34,309 nt of DNA from a virus. Location of the stretch: the IMG/VR virus record IMGVR_UViG_3300048908_000475, positions 1-34,309 of that record; one strand, written 5' to 3'. The position numbers and the translations under genes are program-made. Shown piece after piece: positions 8,573 to 33,768 of the stretch. Within the stretch, counting starts at the first letter, position 1. The number at the start of each line of letters is the position of its first letter. The notes under the pieces are model-generated. The model searched no databases and was not told the origin of the DNA. It saw only the letters and a list, made by a program, of their open reading frames with translations.

Positions 8573-9466
8573 TTAAGCGCTGACCAGCGACAGATTGCCG
8601 GCCGAGAACGTGTAAGTCGTGTTGATCGGGATGGGCTGTTTCGTGACCTTGCGCACCATGCCGGACCCCGTCGAGGAGGTGTTGACCGCCGTGCCGCCGT
8701 TGGTGACGGTGAAAGTGTCGGTCGCCGGCGAGACCACCGCGAGGACGCCCGTCAGGTTCGATTGCGAGAAGGTAGGCGCGGTGCCGCCGTATTCAGTCGA
8801 GAACACGATACTGTCGTTCGCCGCATAGCCGTGCGCCTTGGCGGTGAGGACGCCCGGCGAGGCCGACGAGATTTCGCACGGCAGCCAGGGATAATTGCCG
8901 AGGTAATCAGAATACAACAGATTGCCCGACGAGGCCGCGTCGAAGACGCCCCAGCCGAGCACCGGCGACGCGCCGTTCGCGGTCCAATCGGCGGTCGATT
9001 GCGGTAATTTGGCGTCGGCGACCGAGACGATCGAAGACGGCGACGTTCCGGTCGACGCGCTGTAGGCCGAGAAGCCGATCGAATCGGCGCCGCCGACGCC
9101 GGCGCCGCTCGCATTCGCCGACATGGTCACAGTGGTCGAGGTGGTGGAGAGGATCGTCGTTCCGGCCGGGATCACGGACCCAGACGTCAGATCGACGATG
9201 GTCATGCCCGCGACAACCCACGACGGGACTGAGGCGAAATGCAGCGTAGCGTTGCCGGACGCCGTCGTGCCGTTGGTCGTCACGGAGCCAGAGATTTGAA
9301 CGCGAGCGTAGCCGCCGGCGGAGATTTCGGTAAAGCCGGAATTGGCGTCGGTGCCCATCGCCGTGAACAGGGCCAGCCAGGTTCCCCCGGTCAGCGAGGG
9401 CTCGGCGCCGAGACCCGCGAGATAATTGAGGTGATTCTTGGCGACGTAATCCGAAAAGCCGGTCAT
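8573..9466 (-). CDS. tail fibre-type protein with inserted beta module
   Basis: 297 residues. The start MTGFSDYVAKNHLNYLAG and the following TWLALFTAMGTDANSG...EISAGGYARV block are characteristic of a widespread group of short phage tail/fibre proteins (the pattern is YLxxLxG...LyvaLftt.....G.....GYaRv). Residues about 72-132 are a separate module (xPAGTTIxSxTSTTVTMSAxAxGxG pattern) that also occurs in the tail-hub protein. The C-terminal half has a second beta domain containing AKAHGYAANDSIVFS, a motif frequent in phage tail proteins. No enzyme function visible. It probably contributes to the tail tip or host contact. Confidence 0.75.
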   Translation of the reverse strand: MTGFSDYVAKNHLNYLAGLGAEPSLTGGTWLALFTAMGTDANSGFTEISAGGYARVQISGSVTTNGTTASGNATLHFASVPSWVVAGMTIVDLTSGSVIPAGTTILSTTSTTVTMSANASGAGVGGADSIGFSAYSASTGTSPSSIVSVADAKLPQSTADWTANGASPVLGWGVFDAASSGNLLYSDYLGNYPWLPCEISSASPGVLTAKAHGYAANDSIVFSTEYGGTAPTFSQSNLTGVLAVVSPATDTFTVTNGGTAVNTSSTGSGMVRKVTKQPIPINTTYTFSAGNLSLVSA

Positions 9467-9496
9467 GGGAGTGTCCTGCGGTGGGTGGAGGTGGGA

Positions 9497-10855
9497 TTAG
9501 GAAAGCGCGCCAGACCTGCTGGCTTCGTAATAGTTCGTGCCGTCGCCCTTGAAGACGATGACGAAGGTCTTGCCGGACACCGTGCCCGTCGCCAGCGTGC
9601 CGCTCGCGTGGAGATAGCCGCTGAAGGTGACGGTGTAGGAGGTGGTGCCGCTGGTCTTGATGACGATCGTCACCTCGCCGACGTGACAACGGGACGGCGA
9701 GATGTCGAGCGTTCCGGTCGGCGTCACCTCGATGACGTCGCCCTGCGTCTGGCGGTCGAAGGTCGCGGTGCCGGTGCTGGCCGAGGCCGTTCCGAGTGCG
9801 TGATCGAGGTCGCCGAGCAAATCCCATGTATTTGCGGCGACCTTGACCAGCCAGACGATCGAGCCCGGCTGCGATGCGGTCAGCGCCTTGCCCGCCGGCG
9901 GCGTCACCGTGACGCCGGAAGCCGCCGCAAAGGAGGCGGCGGCGTTGGTCTGAGACAAAACGAAGAAGATCTGGCTGCCGATCGGGAAGGCGGTGGTGCT
10001 GTTATCCGGCACCGTGATTGTCGTCGTCCCTGACGTGTTGACGTCGATCAGGCTCCAAGCGTCGCCCAGCGCCAGCGTGCCAGACCACGAGCCGTTATAG
10101 GTTGGCGCTCCACCTCCGCCGCCGCCGGCCGCCCAGACCGGCAATCCGGAAGCGAGCGTCAGCACATAGCCGTCGGTGGTCGCCGCCGGCAGCGGATCGG
10201 CCCATGTCCCGTCGCCACGCCAGAAGGTCGAGCCCGTGGCGCCGGAGCCCCCGTCGAGATTGGCAACGGGCAGGTCGAACGTCCCGCCCAGCGTCAGGAA
10301 GCCGCCGGTCGCGTTGGCGACGGCTGCGAGCGCGGTTTTGACGCCAGCGCCGAGGCCGGAGATGTTCGCGAGCGCGGCGGCGATCGTCGCCCAGACGACG
10401 TCGAAGTCCGTATTGCTGTTCTTGACGAGCGCCTGGCCGGTCGTGCCGCCTGTCGGGAGCGCGTTCGACGGCGAACCGAGGAGCGCCTGATAATAGTCGT
10501 GGCCCGCGCCATCATTGGCGCCCGCGACGAACGTCGACGCCGAGGTGTGCGCCCAGATCACCGCATAGAGCGTGCCGTTGATCTGGAAGGTGTCGTTGAC
10601 CGCGTAGGCCGTCGTCGGCGCCCATGCGCCGCGATAATTGTAGCTGCCCATCGGCAGCGTGAAGGCCGCCGTGCTGGCGTCCGAAAAAGTGATCAGCAGT
10701 GTGTTTGACGTCGGCTGCGTGATCGACGCGATGCTGAGCCCCGGCGTCGCCGCGAGCAGGCCGTTGACGGCGGTCTGGATCGCGGTCCAGTTGGCGTCGA
10801 CCTCGGCCCACGTCAGCATGCGCCCAAGGAGTGAGCGGATATTCAGCGAAAGCAT
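9497..10855 (-). CDS. tail fibre protein
   Basis: 452 residues. An N-terminal helix (1-35, LSLNIRSLLGRMLTWAEVDANW) is typical of fibre attachment segments in which a pair of W/D-x-N-W motifs follow the start. Next is a YRGAWAPTTAYAVNDTF...GTLYAVIWAHTS module (73-125), the usual small Trp/Tyr-rich carbohydrate-binding-like unit of phage fibres. It is followed by the TTGQALVKNSNTDFDVVW segment (138-156), a repeated fibre shaft motif, then a Gly-rich hinge (243-248) and C-terminal beta domains. No chaperone or protease domain is visible at the end. Likely a trimeric receptor-binding or side fibre; the receptor is not predictable. Confidence 0.8.
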   Translation of the reverse strand: MLSLNIRSLLGRMLTWAEVDANWTAIQTAVNGLLAATPGLSIASITQPTSNTLLITFSDASTAAFTLPMGSYNYRGAWAPTTAYAVNDTFQINGTLYAVIWAHTSASTFVAGANDGAGHDYYQALLGSPSNALPTGGTTGQALVKNSNTDFDVVWATIAAALANISGLGAGVKTALAAVANATGGFLTLGGTFDLPVANLDGGSGATGSTFWRGDGTWADPLPAATTDGYVLTLASGLPVWAAGGGGGGAPTYNGSWSGTLALGDAWSLIDVNTSGTTTITVPDNSTTAFPIGSQIFFVLSQTNAAASFAAASGVTVTPPAGKALTASQPGSIVWLVKVAANTWDLLGDLDHALGTASASTGTATFDRQTQGDVIEVTPTGTLDISPSRCHVGEVTIVIKTSGTTSYTVTFSGYLHASGTLATGTVSGKTFVIVFKGDGTNYYEASRSGALS

Positions 10856-22780: not shown

Positions 22781-23227
22781 TCAAAGCTTGCTGGGATCGA
22801 AGTGATAGAGAATCGTAACCGCGAGGCCCATTTCGCCCTCGCTCGAAGCCAGCGTTGTGAGGTCCGTGGCGCAGCCTTTGTAGCGAACCGTGCCGTTGCG
22901 GCCGATGATCCCGGGCAGCACCGTGTCGGCAAAGAGCGCCTTCAGGAAAGCGGCGCGCAGCGTGTTGAGGCTAGTGCCGATGTCCTCTGGCGTCGCGCCG
23001 AGCGAAATGACGATCTCTGGTCGCGCCTCCATCATGGCGTGGCCGAGCTGCTTCCAGACATTCTCGGTCTCGGCGCCCTCGCTTTCGTGAGCGTCGAGAA
23101 TGTAAAGCGCCGGGCGCAGGTCGGCGTCCGGCTGGATCGATCTGTTGCGGTAGACTTGCTTGAAGACGCCGGCGTTTGCGGCGATTTCGACGAGCTGGGC
23201 GAGGAGCTGTTCGCGAATGTCGGTCAT
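22781..23227 (-). CDS. tail terminator-like protein
   Basis: 148 residues from ATG 23227, which overlaps the previous stop as ATGA (a GTG three codons earlier is less likely). N-terminal helix MTDIREQLLAQLVEIAANAG followed by VFKQVYRNRSIQPDADLRPALYILDAHE, the layout of lambda gpU/SPP1 gp17-type tail terminators. The end, EMGLAVTILYHFDP, is a strand as in that family. It lies directly before the tail tube. Identity by pattern and place. Confidence 0.7.
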   Translation of the reverse strand: MTDIREQLLAQLVEIAANAGVFKQVYRNRSIQPDADLRPALYILDAHESEGAETENVWKQLGHAMMEARPEIVISLGATPEDIGTSLNTLRAAFLKALFADTVLPGIIGRNGTVRYKGCATDLTTLASSEGEMGLAVTILYHFDPSKL

Positions 23228-23415
23228 GAGACACACACCCCGCCTTCAGCGACGCAGATCAATTTTCGTACGCGACGACGCCCTCGCTTGCAGAAGCGTG
23301 AGAATTCACGCCAGGACATCCCCTTCGGCCGAACGAGTTTTTGTCGTTCGACAGTTTCGATGACGTCGCCGACGCGATAATTCGCGCACCGCGTCCATGG
23401 TGAGGGTTCGATCAT
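23224..23415 (-). CDS. small basic hypothetical protein, 63 residues
   Basis: ATGA overlaps at both ends (start 23415 with the previous stop, end with the next start) show it is translated as part of the head-tail joining set. It is Arg/Lys-rich (RGRRRVRK near 44-51) with three Cys, and no membrane span. Function unknown. Confidence 0.6.
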   Translation of the reverse strand: MIEPSPWTRCANYRVGDVIETVERQKLVRPKGMSWREFSRFCKRGRRRVRKLICVAEGGVCVS

Positions 23416-23804
23416 GACTGTGGAATCAGCTCGAGCAGGATTTCGCCTGCGGCGGTCCGCCAGGACGGGACCGGCTTGAACTCGCCGAGATTGGACTTCC
23501 AGGATGGATCCGGCTTGTCATGGGGCACGGCAATGCGCAGGGGCGCGCCATTGAAGATAACGTTGAGGTCGACCAGATCGGAGCGCTCCAGGCCAAGCGC
23601 AGCGACGGCGGTTTGCATCACGGTCGCCATGATCTTCACTTTGCCGAGCACCGTGGGGCCGTCTTTGATGGCGATCTGTGCGCTGCGGTCGAGCGCCGCG
23701 AGCGAAACCATTTGGCGCGTTTTCGGGTGGCGAAAGGTCAAGGGCGAGGATGACGCGGCATAGAGCCGCGCCAGCATCCGCGTGACGCCGTCGGCGAGGT
23801 TCAT
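23412..23804 (-). CDS. head-tail joining protein candidate, 130 residues
   Basis: Start ATG 23804 overlaps the connector stop (ATGA) and its end overlaps the next start. Helix-rich N terminus, then SLAALDRSAQIAIKDGPTVLGKVKIM and a C-terminal beta part with many Pro/Trp. In HK97-type order, connector, stopper and terminator follow one another, so this is in the stopper slot. The sequence is not distinctive enough to name the family. Confidence 0.6.
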   Translation of the reverse strand: MNLADGVTRMLARLYAASSSPLTFRHPKTRQMVSLAALDRSAQIAIKDGPTVLGKVKIMATVMQTAVAALGLERSDLVDLNVIFNGAPLRIAVPHDKPDPSWKSNLGEFKPVPSWRTAAGEILLELIPQS

Positions 23805-24478
23805 GCGATCACCGGCACGCGATAGTTGTCGAGCAGATCCGCGACGTCGGGCGAAAGATTGCCGTCGCCGGATGGAACGAGATATTCGACGCTGTAAACG
23901 CCTTCGGCCTTTTCGGCTTTGATCAGCGGATCGCGCTTGCGCTCAGAATAGCGGGTGTAAACCATGCGCCCTACCGCATCCTCGATATCGAATGGCAGAG
24001 TCGGTATGCCGGGAAATTGCGTCGCGTCCCAAGCAGGAAGCACGAAACCCGCCGCATAGACCACGATGACCAGAGCGCCACACCAGGTCCGGGTTCGGCC
24101 GTCGCTGTCGAGGCGCAACAGGCGCCCGTTGGCGGCGTCCTTGATAAAATCCGTTCCCTCGATCAGCGCGGTTCCGTCGACCGTGACGCTAGTCACGGCG
24201 GCGAGGGGCCAGCGCGAAAGCTGGATTGCCTGCAGATCGCGCACGATCATATGCGGCCAGCCTTCGCAGCTCAGCGAAACGCGATCCTGCACCGTTTCAT
24301 AGGCGAAGATGCGGTTGCAATATTGTTCGGCGGCGGCAGAGCATCGGCCGATGGCGCGGCCGAGAAAGGCGTCGTCCGCAGTTCCGGAGATGCCCCAATC
24401 GTCTTTCAACGTCGCGACATTGGCAAGCACATGATCGGCCGCCGGGGTAACGACGGTCGTGACGACGGCGCGACGCAT
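23801..24478 (-). CDS. head-tail connector (gp6-like)
   Basis: 225 residues, ATG 24478. The helical DDAFLGRAIGRCSAAAEQYCNRIFAYETVQDRV block (about 35-67) is the standard opening of HK97 gp6/phage connector proteins, followed by the region with LSRWPLAAVTSVTVDG (87-102) and a FxxDIEDAVGRMVYTRYSERKRDP helix (about 163-186), all characteristic of this family. It forms the ring below the portal. At 225 residues it is in the long-version range of the family. Confidence 0.85.
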   Translation of the reverse strand: MRRAVVTTVVTPAADHVLANVATLKDDWGISGTADDAFLGRAIGRCSAAAEQYCNRIFAYETVQDRVSLSCEGWPHMIVRDLQAIQLSRWPLAAVTSVTVDGTALIEGTDFIKDAANGRLLRLDSDGRTRTWCGALVIVVYAAGFVLPAWDATQFPGIPTLPFDIEDAVGRMVYTRYSERKRDPLIKAEKAEGVYSVEYLVPSGDGNLSPDVADLLDNYRVPVIA

Positions 24479-26909: not shown

Positions 26910-27875
26910 TCAGGCATTCGCCCGAATTGCGGCGAGACGCGCGCGGCGGCGGTAATGCTCGATATTGGCGGATTTCTCGGCGCCACCGTCCGAACTGCCT
27001 TCGTCTCCGTCGTCATCGGATGCGACAGTTCCGAGCACGCTGGCCAGCTTGCCGCCGGCGCCTTCGATCAATTCGCAGGCGGCCATGATGTCGGCTTCAT
27101 TGGCGGCCGACAGGGCGCGGCCGGCCTTGGCGATGCGCGCAAAGCTCTTGAGTTTGATCGCCGTCGCCGCCTTGTCGGTTCCGCCGAGGCTGCTGAGCAT
27201 TTCGCCGACTTCCTCGGCGGTCATCGCGATCAGCGCCGCGCCAAGCTGATTGGCGGCTTCCGCGAGCATCGCCGGAACCTTCGACCCGTCGCCCTCGGCG
27301 TCGGCCTCCCATTCGGCCCATGACGCCATATAGCCGAGGCTCGACAGCAGCGAGGCGAGTTGGCCGACGTCGTAAAGGTCTTTGACCTGCATGGGCTTGG
27401 CGTCCTTGGTCACGGATTTCGCAGAACGCGCGACGATCAGCGCCTCGGCGTTGGCGGGGACCGATACGAAGGAGAATTCCATCAGTTCGGCCGCGAGATA
27501 TTTCAGGCCGCCGCCCTTGATCGGCTCGGCCTGCGTCGGATCGAAGCCGATCGAGGCCGCGTTGACGACTCCGTTCTTGATCCGCTTGTAAAGCTTGTCA
27601 GCGTCCGGGTCGTCGCCTTCGGGCGGGAATTGCACCAAAGCCTCGACGGAGTCGCCCTTGACGGCGATCTCGGCGCAGCGCGCCACCGGCGTTTTCGGGT
27701 CGTGATTCCACAGCACGATCGGATTGGCCTTATAGGCCGACAGATCGATGCCGCCAGGAATGACGATATCGCCGGCGCGATCGACGCTTGCGGTCGAGAC
27801 GACGACGCGAACCTGACGATCGCCGAGCCCTTCGGAATTTGCCGAAGCCTGGAAAAATTTGCGCTTGAGGGTCAT
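26910..27875 (-). CDS. prohead protease, HK97 family, with C-terminal extension
   Basis: 321 residues from ATG 27875 (a TTG at 27881 would add two). Protease core: VVSTASVDRAGDIV (26-39), catalytic His 58 in WNHD, KxIKNGVVNAASIGF (98-111), and Ser 135 in the ExSxVxVPAN motif (133-142). The core is about 160 residues as in the family; then comes another 160 residues of Ala/Leu/Asp-rich helix, ending in a short basic segment (HYRRRARLAAIRANA). That half looks like a scaffold, probably a protease-scaffold fusion. Confidence 0.9.
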   Translation of the reverse strand: MTLKRKFFQASANSEGLGDRQVRVVVSTASVDRAGDIVIPGGIDLSAYKANPIVLWNHDPKTPVARCAEIAVKGDSVEALVQFPPEGDDPDADKLYKRIKNGVVNAASIGFDPTQAEPIKGGGLKYLAAELMEFSFVSVPANAEALIVARSAKSVTKDAKPMQVKDLYDVGQLASLLSSLGYMASWAEWEADAEGDGSKVPAMLAEAANQLGAALIAMTAEEVGEMLSSLGGTDKAATAIKLKSFARIAKAGRALSAANEADIMAACELIEGAGGKLASVLGTVASDDDGDEGSSDGGAEKSANIEHYRRRARLAAIRANA

Positions 27876-27877
27876 CG

Positions 27878-29200
27878 TCAAAGCCTTTGGTCTTCGGCCT
27901 GAGGCCGGCCCGCGTCATCGGGCGCGCCACCCGCCGCCTGGCTGCCGGACGCGGCAAGATTGGTCGGCGCCAGCAGCCTGTCGCCATCGGGCTGCATCGG
28001 CAGGTTCGGATCGTAAAGCGACAGCGCCTGATTTTGCGTCAGCACGCCGCCGACGACGCCCTGGCGCGCGATCAGCATGCGGCCTGACGGCGAGGCGCGG
28101 AACAGGTCGGACAGATCGAAATCGACTTCCAGCCCTTCGAGATCGAGGCCGAAATGGAATTCAAGCCGGCGCTCCCATCGCGTGAATTTCGGCGACAGCG
28201 TGTTGTTGGTGTAATCGGCGTCCTGCGCCTCGATATTATTGTTGGTCGATCGGTCGGTTTTGGCGACCTTGTGCGGCGGGACACGGAAAAACCGGCAGAT
28301 GTCCTCGACCTGAAAGCCACGGCTATTCAGAAATTCGAGATCGACCGAGCTTAGGGACAAAGCCTGCGCCTTGAGTCCCTGTTCGAACACGACGGTCTTG
28401 CCGGTATTGGCGAGGCCGGCGTTCATCTCCTCCCATTCCGCCTTCATGCGTTTTGCGGCGTCGTCGGTCAGCTTGCCTTCGGTCGTCAGAACAACGGAAG
28501 GACGCGCGCCGTTCTGCATCCAGGCGCCGGCCTGCTTCTCCTGCCCGAGCGCCAGACCGATCGAATCCGCCGCGAAGCCGATGCGGCTTGACCCCATCAG
28601 CATGTTGAAGCCCAGATCCTGCATGTGGAACACATGCTCGGAGGGGACGCGGAAGCCCGCATAGGTCTGCGGCAATTTGGTCAGAATCGACAGCTCGAAC
28701 AGGCCGGTCGGCGCGAACTGATAGAAGATCGATCCGTCCGCCGCCTCAAGCACCGTGACCTTGTCGGGGTTCATCGGGATCAGCTCGGACGGATCGCCGC
28801 GGCGATCGCGCAGGACGATCGCGTAGGCGTTAGACTTCAGCTCTACCGCACGCTCCATCATGCCGGCGAACTGAAACCAGTCTTGCACCCGGTTGGGGCG
28901 CCGGAACAATTTCGCGAGCGGATGATCCGTAACCTGTTCGCGGCCGCCTGGCGCTTTGCGGCCATCGGAAAGAGTTCTATCCGGCAATGGCCGGTAAAGT
29001 TTCGGCTCGGCGCGCGCGACGTCTTCGGAAATGATGTTGACGCAGGCGAACACCGTCGAGCAGCGCATAGCCGTCGATTGGTTGACCGCGATGCCGCTCG
29101 ACGACTTGACCGAGCCAAGGAACGGAAACCACGCGCCGCCGCCGATATCGCCGGCGCCGCTTTTTCGGCGCGGCGTCATCGAGCCAAAAAGACCGCGCAT
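27878..29200 (-). CDS. HK97-type portal protein
   Basis: 440 residues, ATG 29200 overlapping the previous stop by one base (TGATG); a TTG one codon earlier is also possible. Family features: AVNQSTAMRCSTVFACVNIISEDVARAEPKLYR (about 38-70), HPLAKLF.RPN near 94-104, VFHMQDLGF, LALGQEKQAGAWMQNGARPSVVL in the centre, and DLEFLNSRGFQVEDICRFFRVPPHKV followed by EAQDADYTNNTLSPKFTRWERRLEF near the C terminus. This forms the dodecameric ring at the DNA-entry vertex. The order terminase, portal, protease, capsid is standard. Confidence 0.95.
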   Translation of the reverse strand: MRGLFGSMTPRRKSGAGDIGGGAWFPFLGSVKSSSGIAVNQSTAMRCSTVFACVNIISEDVARAEPKLYRPLPDRTLSDGRKAPGGREQVTDHPLAKLFRRPNRVQDWFQFAGMMERAVELKSNAYAIVLRDRRGDPSELIPMNPDKVTVLEAADGSIFYQFAPTGLFELSILTKLPQTYAGFRVPSEHVFHMQDLGFNMLMGSSRIGFAADSIGLALGQEKQAGAWMQNGARPSVVLTTEGKLTDDAAKRMKAEWEEMNAGLANTGKTVVFEQGLKAQALSLSSVDLEFLNSRGFQVEDICRFFRVPPHKVAKTDRSTNNNIEAQDADYTNNTLSPKFTRWERRLEFHFGLDLEGLEVDFDLSDLFRASPSGRMLIARQGVVGGVLTQNQALSLYDPNLPMQPDGDRLLAPTNLAASGSQAAGGAPDDAGRPQAEDQRL

Positions 29201-31495: not shown

Positions 31496-31509
31496 TGATT
31501 TGCTCGCTC

Positions 31510-31540
31510 TTTGATTGCCTGTTTGATTGTGCGTTTGATT
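31510..31540. repeat. three 12-bp-spaced direct repeats before terS
   Basis: TTTGATT occurs at 31510-31516, 31522-31528 and 31534-31540, each start exactly 12 bases after the last (AATCAAA on the minus strand). They lie in an AT-rich island between the promoter and the small-terminase start. Phased repeats at this place could be the terminase recognition (cos/pac) site, or an operator for a late regulator. Confidence 0.65.
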
Positions 31541-31541
31541 A

Positions 31542-31569
31542 ATTATCTAACGCGAAAACCGAAGGTCAA
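31542..31569 (-). promoter_or_regulatory. sigma70-like promoter for the late operon
   Basis: On the minus strand TTGACC (31569-31564), a 16-base spacer and GATAAT (31547-31542). Both hexamers match the consensus at five of six bases. The start would fall near 31535, within the direct repeats, 40 bases before terS. It is the best promoter-like sequence in the window and lies just after the antiterminator and HNH genes. Confidence 0.6.
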
Positions 31570-31630
31570 AAATCTCCGGCCGGGATTGAGTGCGGTCGCG
31601 TGCTTGCCTTCGCTTGGGGAATTAAACCCC

Positions 31631-32095: not shown

Positions 32096-32659
32096 TTACG
32101 CCTCGACCTTCACAAGGTCTTCGGCGGAGGCTTTTAATTCGACTTTCTCGAACCCGGGCCTACACGATTGCAGAATGAATCTGATTCGCGCCCGACCGTC
32201 AAGGCGAGCGACCCGCCAGATCTGGTCTTCGAACGCAGGCCTGTTCACCCGCACGACGTCGCCGCGCTTAAACTCTTCACGCTCGCGAACGTCGCGTTTC
32301 AACGTCAGATCAATCAATTCCCCAACGTTCATCATCGCGGCCATCAGCGCCGGCGGCACGAGCGAAGGCGCCGAAAGTTTTCCACAGCTTCGCAGTAGAT
32401 CGACCACGCCGCGCGCGTCCACGACCGCCGCCCAGTCGTCGCTGCCCGCCGCCCAGCCGACGAAGACATAGCCCCGAAATAGTGGCCGCTCGATCGCCCT
32501 GCGCAGCGCCTTGGCCCGCCCGAAATGCCTAACCTCCGTGGTCCGCACCCTCGGCGCGAACACCGGAAAGCCCATCTCCCGCAATTCGTCGCGCGCCAGC
32601 CCGAAGCCATAGGCCGTGGTATGCGCAACACCCCAAGAAATCTGCTTTTCCGCCGCCAT
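32096..32659 (-). CDS. NusG/RfaH-type transcription antitermination protein
   Basis: 187 residues from ATG 32659, with AGGGCGGG upstream; an upstream TTG (32689) is less likely. NGN domain at about 7-90: WGVAHTTAYGFGLARDELREMG start, PLFRGYVFV (59-67), the W and RGV-x-DLLR (83-90). A KOW-like part runs about 129-165 (FKRGDVVRVN...GRARIRFIL). Such specialised NusG paralogues travel with RNA polymerase on one operon and suppress pausing or termination. It lies directly ahead of the roughly 30-kb late operon, which it probably serves. Confidence 0.85.
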   Translation of the reverse strand: MAAEKQISWGVAHTTAYGFGLARDELREMGFPVFAPRVRTTEVRHFGRAKALRRAIERPLFRGYVFVGWAAGSDDWAAVVDARGVVDLLRSCGKLSAPSLVPPALMAAMMNVGELIDLTLKRDVREREEFKRGDVVRVNRPAFEDQIWRVARLDGRARIRFILQSCRPGFEKVELKASAEDLVKVEA

Positions 32660-32715: not shown

Positions 32716-33768
32716 TCACCCGGCCCGCGCGCCATGGCCGCCTCCGCCTGGCGGGTAGAGCGTCGGAAAATCCCAAACATCGCAAAGCCTGCCGTCGACC
32801 AGGTGCTTCCGCGTCGGAAAGCTGCGAACGCCACGGGCCTGCAGCCATGCGGACCAGGCCGGCGAGTTCTTGATCACCGGCACGGTCTTCCCCGGCGAGA
32901 GAGTTGGATGTTTCTTGGCCGCCAGCACGAACGGCTCCCAGCCCTTCCGGCCGATCCAGCTTCGCGCCGACATCGGCTTGCTGCGCTTGCGCTGAACCTC
33001 GGCGCCATAGGCCGGGATATGCTCGATCGCCAGCACCCGCTCTTCGGGCGACAGCTCACGAAACTTGCGCCGCACCGGCTCCAGCAGCTCGCCGTCAGCC
33101 CAGGTCCACGCATCGACGAACCGGTTCCAGTCGGAAAGCCATGAACCTTCGGCCAAGGCCGCGTCCGATGAAGCTGGGGGGGACTTTAGGGGGGAAGATT
33201 TCAGATATGATCTTTCATGACACGGCGCCAGTGACGTATCAGCAGACACGTCATTTTGCAGCGTCTGCGCCCCAGCATCCTGAAGCGTCAAATTGACGTG
33301 TCTGTTTTCATTGGGCTTTTCGCCATCTATTTGATTTTCTTCAGATGCGTTTTCCGCTGACACGTCATTTTGCAGCGTCTGCCGTTCGCTATCGCCATGA
33401 TCCGCTTCGCTTTCTTCATCCGAGAGCGGATTTTCGCGTTTCTTGCCCACTTCGGCGGGGTCGAACCCGAGCGAAAGCGCATATTCGACGCAGTAGGAAT
33501 CGTGCAAAACGACATAGACGCGCGTGCCGGCATGGCCGTTTTTTTTCACCCGCCGCGGGCCGATGTAAATCTTGCCGAGACTCTCCAGCAGCCGCAGGCC
33601 GCGCTGGACGGTCGCGACCGATTGATCGGTCGTCGCGCCCAGCCATTCCTGCGAGGGGAAGCAGGCGCCGGTGACGTCGGCGCACGAGCCCAAAACCGAA
33701 AGCAGGAACTTCGCGCCGGCCGATCCGATATGCTGATCGAGCGCCCATTTGTGCGCGTTGACGCTCAT
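32716..33768 (-). CDS. phage replication initiator (O-like, winged helix)
   Basis: 350 residues; ATG 33768 overlaps the previous stop as ATGA. N-terminal winged helix (about 5-100: KFLLSVLGSCADVTGACFPSQEWLGATTDQSVATVQRGLRLLESLGKI). A long acidic/polar linker (110-200) contains two copies of QTLQNDVSA (130-138 and 168-176), the protein trace of repeated DNA. The C-terminal domain (200-310) has MSARSWIGRKGWEPF (266-280), typical of initiators that call the host or phage helicase. It resembles lambda O in plan, including origin-like repeats in the middle of the gene. Its N terminus is paralogous to the next two genes. Confidence 0.8.
   Translation of the reverse strand: MSVNAHKWALDQHIGSAGAKFLLSVLGSCADVTGACFPSQEWLGATTDQSVATVQRGLRLLESLGKIYIGPRRVKKNGHAGTRVYVVLHDSYCVEYALSLGFDPAEVGKKRENPLSDEESEADHGDSERQTLQNDVSAENASEENQIDGEKPNENRHVNLTLQDAGAQTLQNDVSADTSLAPCHERSYLKSSPLKSPPASSDAALAEGSWLSDWNRFVDAWTWADGELLEPVRRKFRELSPEERVLAIEHIPAYGAEVQRKRSKPMSARSWIGRKGWEPFVLAAKKHPTLSPGKTVPVIKNSPAWSAWLQARGVRSFPTRKHLVDGRLCDVWDFPTLYPPGGGGHGARAG
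33232..33382. other. candidate replication origin: iteron-like repeats
   Basis: GACACGTCA occurs at 33245-33253 and 33359-33367 as part of a 24-base exact direct repeat (33245-33268 and 33359-33382), and inverted as TGACGTGTC at 33294-33302; a partial TGACGT is at 33232-33237. A near palindrome CGTCAAATTGACG fills 33286-33298. Between copies (33301-33355) the DNA is markedly AT-rich for this genome. The cluster is within the initiator gene, as in the lambda origin. This is a prediction from pattern. Confidence 0.6.

Follow-up and report, generated by a model that had tools for sequence, protein, structure and literature searches.

The initiator gene and its setting

The window analyzed here, by which we mean the whole stretch of DNA under study, is an IMG/VR virus record of 34,309 bp (IMGVR_UViG_3300048908_000475). 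At 64.6% GC it belongs to a phage of ~65% GC, and over 31.8 kb it matches a 48-kb contig (G003) at 99.994% identity. The genes and protein domains at the locus are as follows.

32096 to 32659, minus strand: NusG-like transcription antiterminator (phrog_6386), directly downstream of the initiator gene and before the terminase gene
32716 to 33768, minus strand: replication initiator gene, 350 aa, HTH_36/phage O-like by its Pfam PF13730 and PHROG matches
33499 to 33768, minus strand: winged helix-turn-helix (wHTH) DNA-binding domain, codons 1 to 90, from the AF2 model and the HTH_36 match
33148 to 33498, minus strand: linker, codons 91 to 207, predicted to be disordered (AF2 pLDDT <50 over residues 91 to 207) and containing the candidate origin
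32716 to 33147, minus strand: C-terminal domain, codons 208 to 350, defined by alignments, common to relatives L003 and L005 and unrelated in relatives L004 and L017
33765 to 34094 and 34091 to 34309, minus strand: two tandem stand-alone winged-helix genes just upstream of the initiator gene, the latter running off the window

The initiator protein matches Pfam PF13730 (HTH_36) with an E value of 4.7e-8 and 33.2 bits, above the curated cutoff of 25, and its winged helix is joined by the linker to a C-terminal domain, in a phage early region, as is typical of HTH_36 initiators. A Pfam search extended to E=1 returned HTH_36 plus a subthreshold HTH_41 only, with no match to a lambda O family, in which the protein differs from lambda O. 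Its kinship to O-like proteins comes instead from PHROG models, as it matches phrog_1032 (replication initiation protein; E=3e-14) along with several PHROGs described as O-like. An NCBIfam search gave no match, searching PDB sequences turned up no close relative, and Foldseek against the PDB returned generic winged-helix matches only, none at E≤0.001. In the AF2 model, the N terminus comprises helices at residues 3 to 11, 17 to 29, 40 to 46, and 51 to 63, followed by strands at 67 to 76 and 79 to 88, and a second folded domain spans residues 208 to 335. The recognition helix corresponds approximately to residues 51 to 63 and includes the sequence DQSVATVQRG. The C-terminal domain presumably recruits the replisome.

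Downstream of the initiator gene, the NusG-like antiterminator is followed by terminase, portal, head protease, and capsid genes, and the gene order of the operon looks lambda-like. Upstream, stand-alone winged-helix genes occur three in a row in L003, L005, and G003 and as a pair in L004; the recognition helices of these neighbors differ from that of the initiator. The related 48-kb contig carries an integrase-like open reading frame (ORF) and a possible repressor on the opposite strand, both judged by eye from the sequence (L056, 6682 to 7668, minus strand; L055, 15717 to 16577, plus strand), which suggests a temperate phage.

Repeated sites in the linker DNA

An earlier note on this DNA had described, within the linker-coding region, a pair of 24-nt direct repeats (33245 to 33268 and 33359 to 33382), an inverted copy of their core (33294 to 33302), a short palindrome (33286 to 33298), an AT-rich stretch, and two copies of the encoded peptide QTLQNDVSA. 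All of these are present. The direct repeats are identical and extend to 93% identity over 30 nt, the inverted core is exact, and the palindrome, CGTCAAATTGACG, is the center of a third, inverted copy. The peptide is indeed encoded twice, and the AT-rich stretch between the repeats is real: positions 33305 to 33358 are 39% GC, a value within the bottom 0.16% for 54-bp windows. The 54-bp stretches where GC is lowest in the window (33%) are at 31496 to 31575, ~1.8 kb from the candidate origin, and adjoin the start of the terminase gene.

The exact core, GACACGTCA, occurs three times in the whole window, each time inside the linker repeats, and a fourth site with one mismatch lies at 33232 to 33240. 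Three 21-bp imperfect dyads (9-3-9) and a half-site describe these elements better than repeats, core, and palindrome do; where sequence is shown below, it is that of the coding strand.

33359 to 33379, no strand assigned: iteron 1, 21-bp dyad GACGCTGCA-AAA-TGACGTGTC, its position kept in L004 (coding position 390)
33305 to 33358, no strand assigned: AT-rich spacer between iterons 1 and 2, 54 bp, a candidate unwinding element by its GC content
33282 to 33302, no strand assigned: iteron 2, 21-bp dyad GACACGTCA-ATT-TGACGCTTC, inverted with respect to iterons 1 and 3
33245 to 33265, no strand assigned: iteron 3, 21-bp dyad GACGCTGCA-AAA-TGACGTGTC
33232 to 33240, no strand assigned: iteron half-site GATACGTCA, found at the same position in L004
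33176 to 33194, no strand assigned: C-tract pair CCCCCCTAAAGTCCCCCCC, downstream of the iterons and recurrent in the family

Spacing between successive sites is 77, 37, and 25 bp, and in any single dyad of the window only 6 or 7 of the 9 positions match. The 21/21 direct repeat was reached in none of 1,000 Markov sequences and in 6 of 1,000 synonymous-codon shuffles, the latter figure being helped by the repeated peptide itself. Taken alone, the inverted copy in the window is not significant, being reached in 168 of 1,000 synonymous shuffles and 53 of 1,000 Markov sequences.

Comparison with relatives separates the DNA from the peptide that it encodes. The initiator of L004 has a winged helix 73% identical to that of the window and an unrelated C-terminal domain, and in it the half-site and each of the three dyads stand at the same coding positions as in the window (390, 467, 504, and 529). 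The residues over dyad 1 have changed from NDVSA to IAASG, and the dyad itself is more symmetrical in L004 (GACGCTGCA-AAT-TGCAGCATC). Where residues are conserved between the two, identical codons are used for 39 of 42 within the origin versus 62 of 94 elsewhere (Fisher P = 0.0006), although some of this identity may stem from a recent exchange of the block. Aligning the linker DNA of related phages had been proposed as a check, with repeats kept while residues drift as the supporting outcome, and this is the pattern seen in L004. The suggestion that DNA rather than protein is the selected feature gains support from both the dyads kept under a changed peptide and the codon identity.

The converse change is seen in L003 and L005. 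Their C-terminal domains are 92% and 83% identical to that of the window, and they have another winged helix together with other dyads (TACCGCA; half-site CGTACCGCA) at positions 405, 481, 529, and 556. L017, whose wHTH is 45 to 46% identical and whose C terminus is different again, has dyads of the L003 type at 382, 459, 493, and 520. Dyads 1 and 2 lie 76 to 77 bp apart in both specificity classes, while the dyad sequences are unrelated. More distant initiators carry further variants. A plasmid of Tardiphaga sp. 709 (NZ_CP135530.1; L023, 2501 to 3181) encodes the recognition helix EQSVDTVQRR and has iterons resembling the TACCGCA class, CCATGCCGCA, in its linker; its initiator is annotated merely as a helix-turn-helix protein, and the plasmid is possibly a phage-plasmid. 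The helix EQSVDSVDRH (L124) goes with GCCGCAA dyads, and EQSVASVGRG (L129), close to the window's helix, goes with TTCGTCAA sites in which the CGTCA core is kept. From these sequence comparisons, the N-terminal reader and its sites thus appear to form one cassette exchanged between phages, with the C-terminal domain exchanged separately.

Linker repeats across HTH_36 initiators

The HTH_36 initiators that we gathered came from prokaryote genomes as well as from viral contigs and from records of phages and plasmids, and they yielded 90 nonredundant full-length genes. The search for genome relatives was centered on a Methylorubrum locus; scanning the genome contigs by full-length alignment returned no locus, and scanning with the wHTH alone returned one. 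Linker repeats were called significant when no more than 1 of 100 synonymous shuffles matched them. By this threshold, 75 of the 90 initiators have significant linker repeats, all of them within 0 to ~110 residues after the wHTH, and a comparable threshold was reached by 5 of 71 other ORFs from three of the phages. The remaining 15 (about one in six) fall below the threshold, some by divergence, as in L017, and some because they are genuinely without repeats. Diverged iterons escape a statistic built on exact 8-mers (for L017, it is reached by 60 of 100 shuffles), so that the count of 75 is probably a lower bound. Salmonella phage SI8, which has an HTH_36 gene before its primase/helicase gene, lacks linker repeats, and so the presence of built-in sites is not universal. 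Judged from these sequences, sites built into the initiator gene nevertheless appear to be the rule in the HTH_36 family, true of most members and following the DNA-reading helix.

Internal DNA repeats above synonymous shuffles were also seen in non-initiator ORFs, all on the minus strand: 23062 to 24327 of G003 and 9110 to 10255 and 27683 to 29146 of G006.

Successive direct copies are spaced 22 bp in 32 genes and 23 bp in 36, compared with ~4 genes at a typical other spacing. This is approximately two helical turns and is out of codon phase, so that the copies are read in different frames. Near-perfect dyads are in about ninefold excess (57 versus 6.2 expected). The spacing in the window is unusual against the family's 22 to 23 bp and is common to its close relatives. 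The C-tract pair was present in 20 of 38 relatives, against a mean of 6.7 and a maximum of 17 in 200 synonymous shuffles, and its start falls in each of the three codon positions; it could act as an origin element at the level of DNA. The pair (CCCCC-n-CCCCC on the coding strand) often stands after GAACCNTCA-like repeats.

The sequence of the repeats varies with the recognition helix. Only 2.7% of gene pairs with recognition helices <25% identical have a repeated 7-mer in common, versus 81% of pairs with helices ≥70% identical (Mantel test, 0 of 2,000 permutations). Homology of the C-terminal domain brought no increase in sharing among pairs with similar helices (36% with and 46% without). When all winged-helix columns were scanned, the best predictors were residues 55 and 52 (z scores of 7.5 and 6.3; next best, 4.5), both of which lie on the recognition helix. 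In partial Mantel tests, the rest of the wHTH predicted sharing at least as well (r = 0.187 versus 0.129), which indicates that shared ancestry contributes to the signal. The co-variation of reader and sites across the family, together with the two residues that stand out on the helix, is the part of this work of most interest. Each HTH_36 initiator gene of phages and prophages would bring its own reader and target, making public sequence a large self-labeled set of winged-helix and DNA-site pairs, and we lean modestly toward a reading in which residues 52 and 55 are main determinants of the iteron sequence and in which a predictive recognition code, with the replication-compatibility groups that follow from it, can be read from such a set.

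A candidate replication origin within the initiator gene

What we observe here is the repeats themselves, where they lie, how they are conserved as DNA, and how they co-vary with the recognition helix. Considered with the protein matches, these observations make it very probable that the gene encodes an HTH_36/O-like phage replication initiator whose linker-coding DNA is the replication origin of the phage. The earlier proposal of an origin inside the initiator gene is strengthened by the conservation in L004, by the repeats that change with the helix in L003, L005, and L017, and by the pattern over 90 family members. GC skew at ~33300, which had been put forward as a check, does not mark the site, and cumulative skew turns 3 to 4 kb downstream (G003, G006, and G004); we counted a strand-composition switch as a supporting rather than a defining sign of a lambda-type origin.

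The window has several dyad-symmetric repeats inside the initiator gene and an A+T-rich region beside them, as lambda-type origins do, and an origin placed in this way would be an arrangement of a kind already known. In lambda, O dimers bind 18- to 19-bp inverted-repeat iterons in gene O, and an adjacent 39- to 40-bp AT-rich region opens (PMC5043065, PMC6022878). In both systems the origin, or candidate origin, lies within the initiator gene between a DNA-binding N terminus and a partner-binding C terminus, over a flexible linker, and in both there are multiple imperfect inverted-repeat iterons with an AT-rich region, although binding as a dimer is a feature of lambda (PMC5043065, PMC6022878, PMC7466680). 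Unlike those of ori-lambda, the dyads of the window are 21 bp long, of unrelated sequence, and three in number with a half-site, and the AT-rich stretch lies between iterons 1 and 2, whereas that of lambda lies beside a compact array.

Among tested systems, the nearest parallel is offered by pPR9, a staphylococcal plasmid in which an HTH_36 initiator with a reader and origin module is already known to function. Its Rep has an HTH_36 N terminus and its rep region replicates on its own; compared with pSK41, a ~500-bp region (RepA_N domain and origin) differs while the C terminus is >97% identical, and in pSK41 the linker protein is dispensable (PMC5703833). These RepA_N plasmids resemble the window in having an HTH_36 or winged-HTH N terminus and an origin in the linker-coding region, and the difference between L003 and the window is the same kind of swap. 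They differ in being Firmicutes plasmids with a DnaG-binding C terminus and antisense-RNA control; the C-terminal domain of the window is another. In the repABC plasmid p42d, the origin likewise lies within the gene for the initiator, RepC, close to an A+T-rich region, and synonymous changes there abolish replication (PMC3155836). This plasmid is alphaproteobacterial, as are many hosts in the survey, but repC is without iterons, and the likeness is one of published description.

By analogy with lambda and RepA_N plasmids, from which binding, dimerization, unwinding, and helicase loading are extrapolated, the N-terminal winged helix would bind, probably as a dimer, the dyads at 33359 to 33379, 33282 to 33302, and 33245 to 33265 plus the half-site at 33232 to 33240. 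The assembled complex would stress and open adjacent AT-rich DNA, either 33305 to 33358, the stretch just downstream of the iterons, or both. The C-terminal domain, on its flexible linker tether, would then recruit the host helicase machinery.

Alternatively, the dyads may be operators through which the initiator or a neighboring stand-alone wHTH protein represses or attenuates its own gene, with the origin elsewhere. Co-variation with the wHTH shows that the protein probably reads the sites, which would suit an operator as well as an origin, and two stand-alone wHTH genes do lie upstream. However, the recognition helices of these neighbors are unlike that of the initiator, the sites are found ~390 to 540 nt into the gene and include an AT-rich spacer whose length is constant, an arrangement like that of the lambda origin (PMC5043065, PMC6022878), and the block exchanged in the HTH_36 plasmid pPR9 corresponds to the RepA_N domain and origin of pSK41, in a rep region that replicates autonomously (PMC5703833). 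We consider an operator role in place of an origin unlikely; dual use of the sites as origin and autoregulatory operators is possible.

It is less likely still that the repeats reflect a mere repeated linker peptide, such as a small duplication of QTLQNDVSA, with no role for the DNA. As this would predict, the two direct copies in the window stand in codon phase at a distance of 114 nt and specify one and the same peptide, but the third copy runs on the opposite strand and specifies another (HVNLTLQ), the dyads persist in L004 under a changed peptide, and the linker is predicted to be disordered. Across the family, the 22- to 23-bp spacing is not in codon phase, and 75 of 90 genes have more repetition than their synonymous shuffles. 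On the grounds of frame, strand, and the L004 comparison, we rejected a peptide repeat as the cause. Least probable of all is that the linker is mainly a recombination joint, its repeats and conserved DNA maintained because phages exchange domains there: natural chimeras do join at the linker, but the repeats, rather than forming one joint sequence common to all, travel with the wHTH and differ between classes, and they are best predicted by recognition-helix residues 52 and 55.

An origin in the linker-coding DNA gives an uncultured, apparently temperate phage a concrete, testable candidate site for the start of its replication. It also extends an observation on one phage to what looks like a family rule, by which sequence alone may suffice to place the origin of most members, directly behind the winged helix. 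As each gene carries both a reader and its own sites, the family could yield a recognition code for winged helices and could help predict which phages and phage-plasmids compete for replication.
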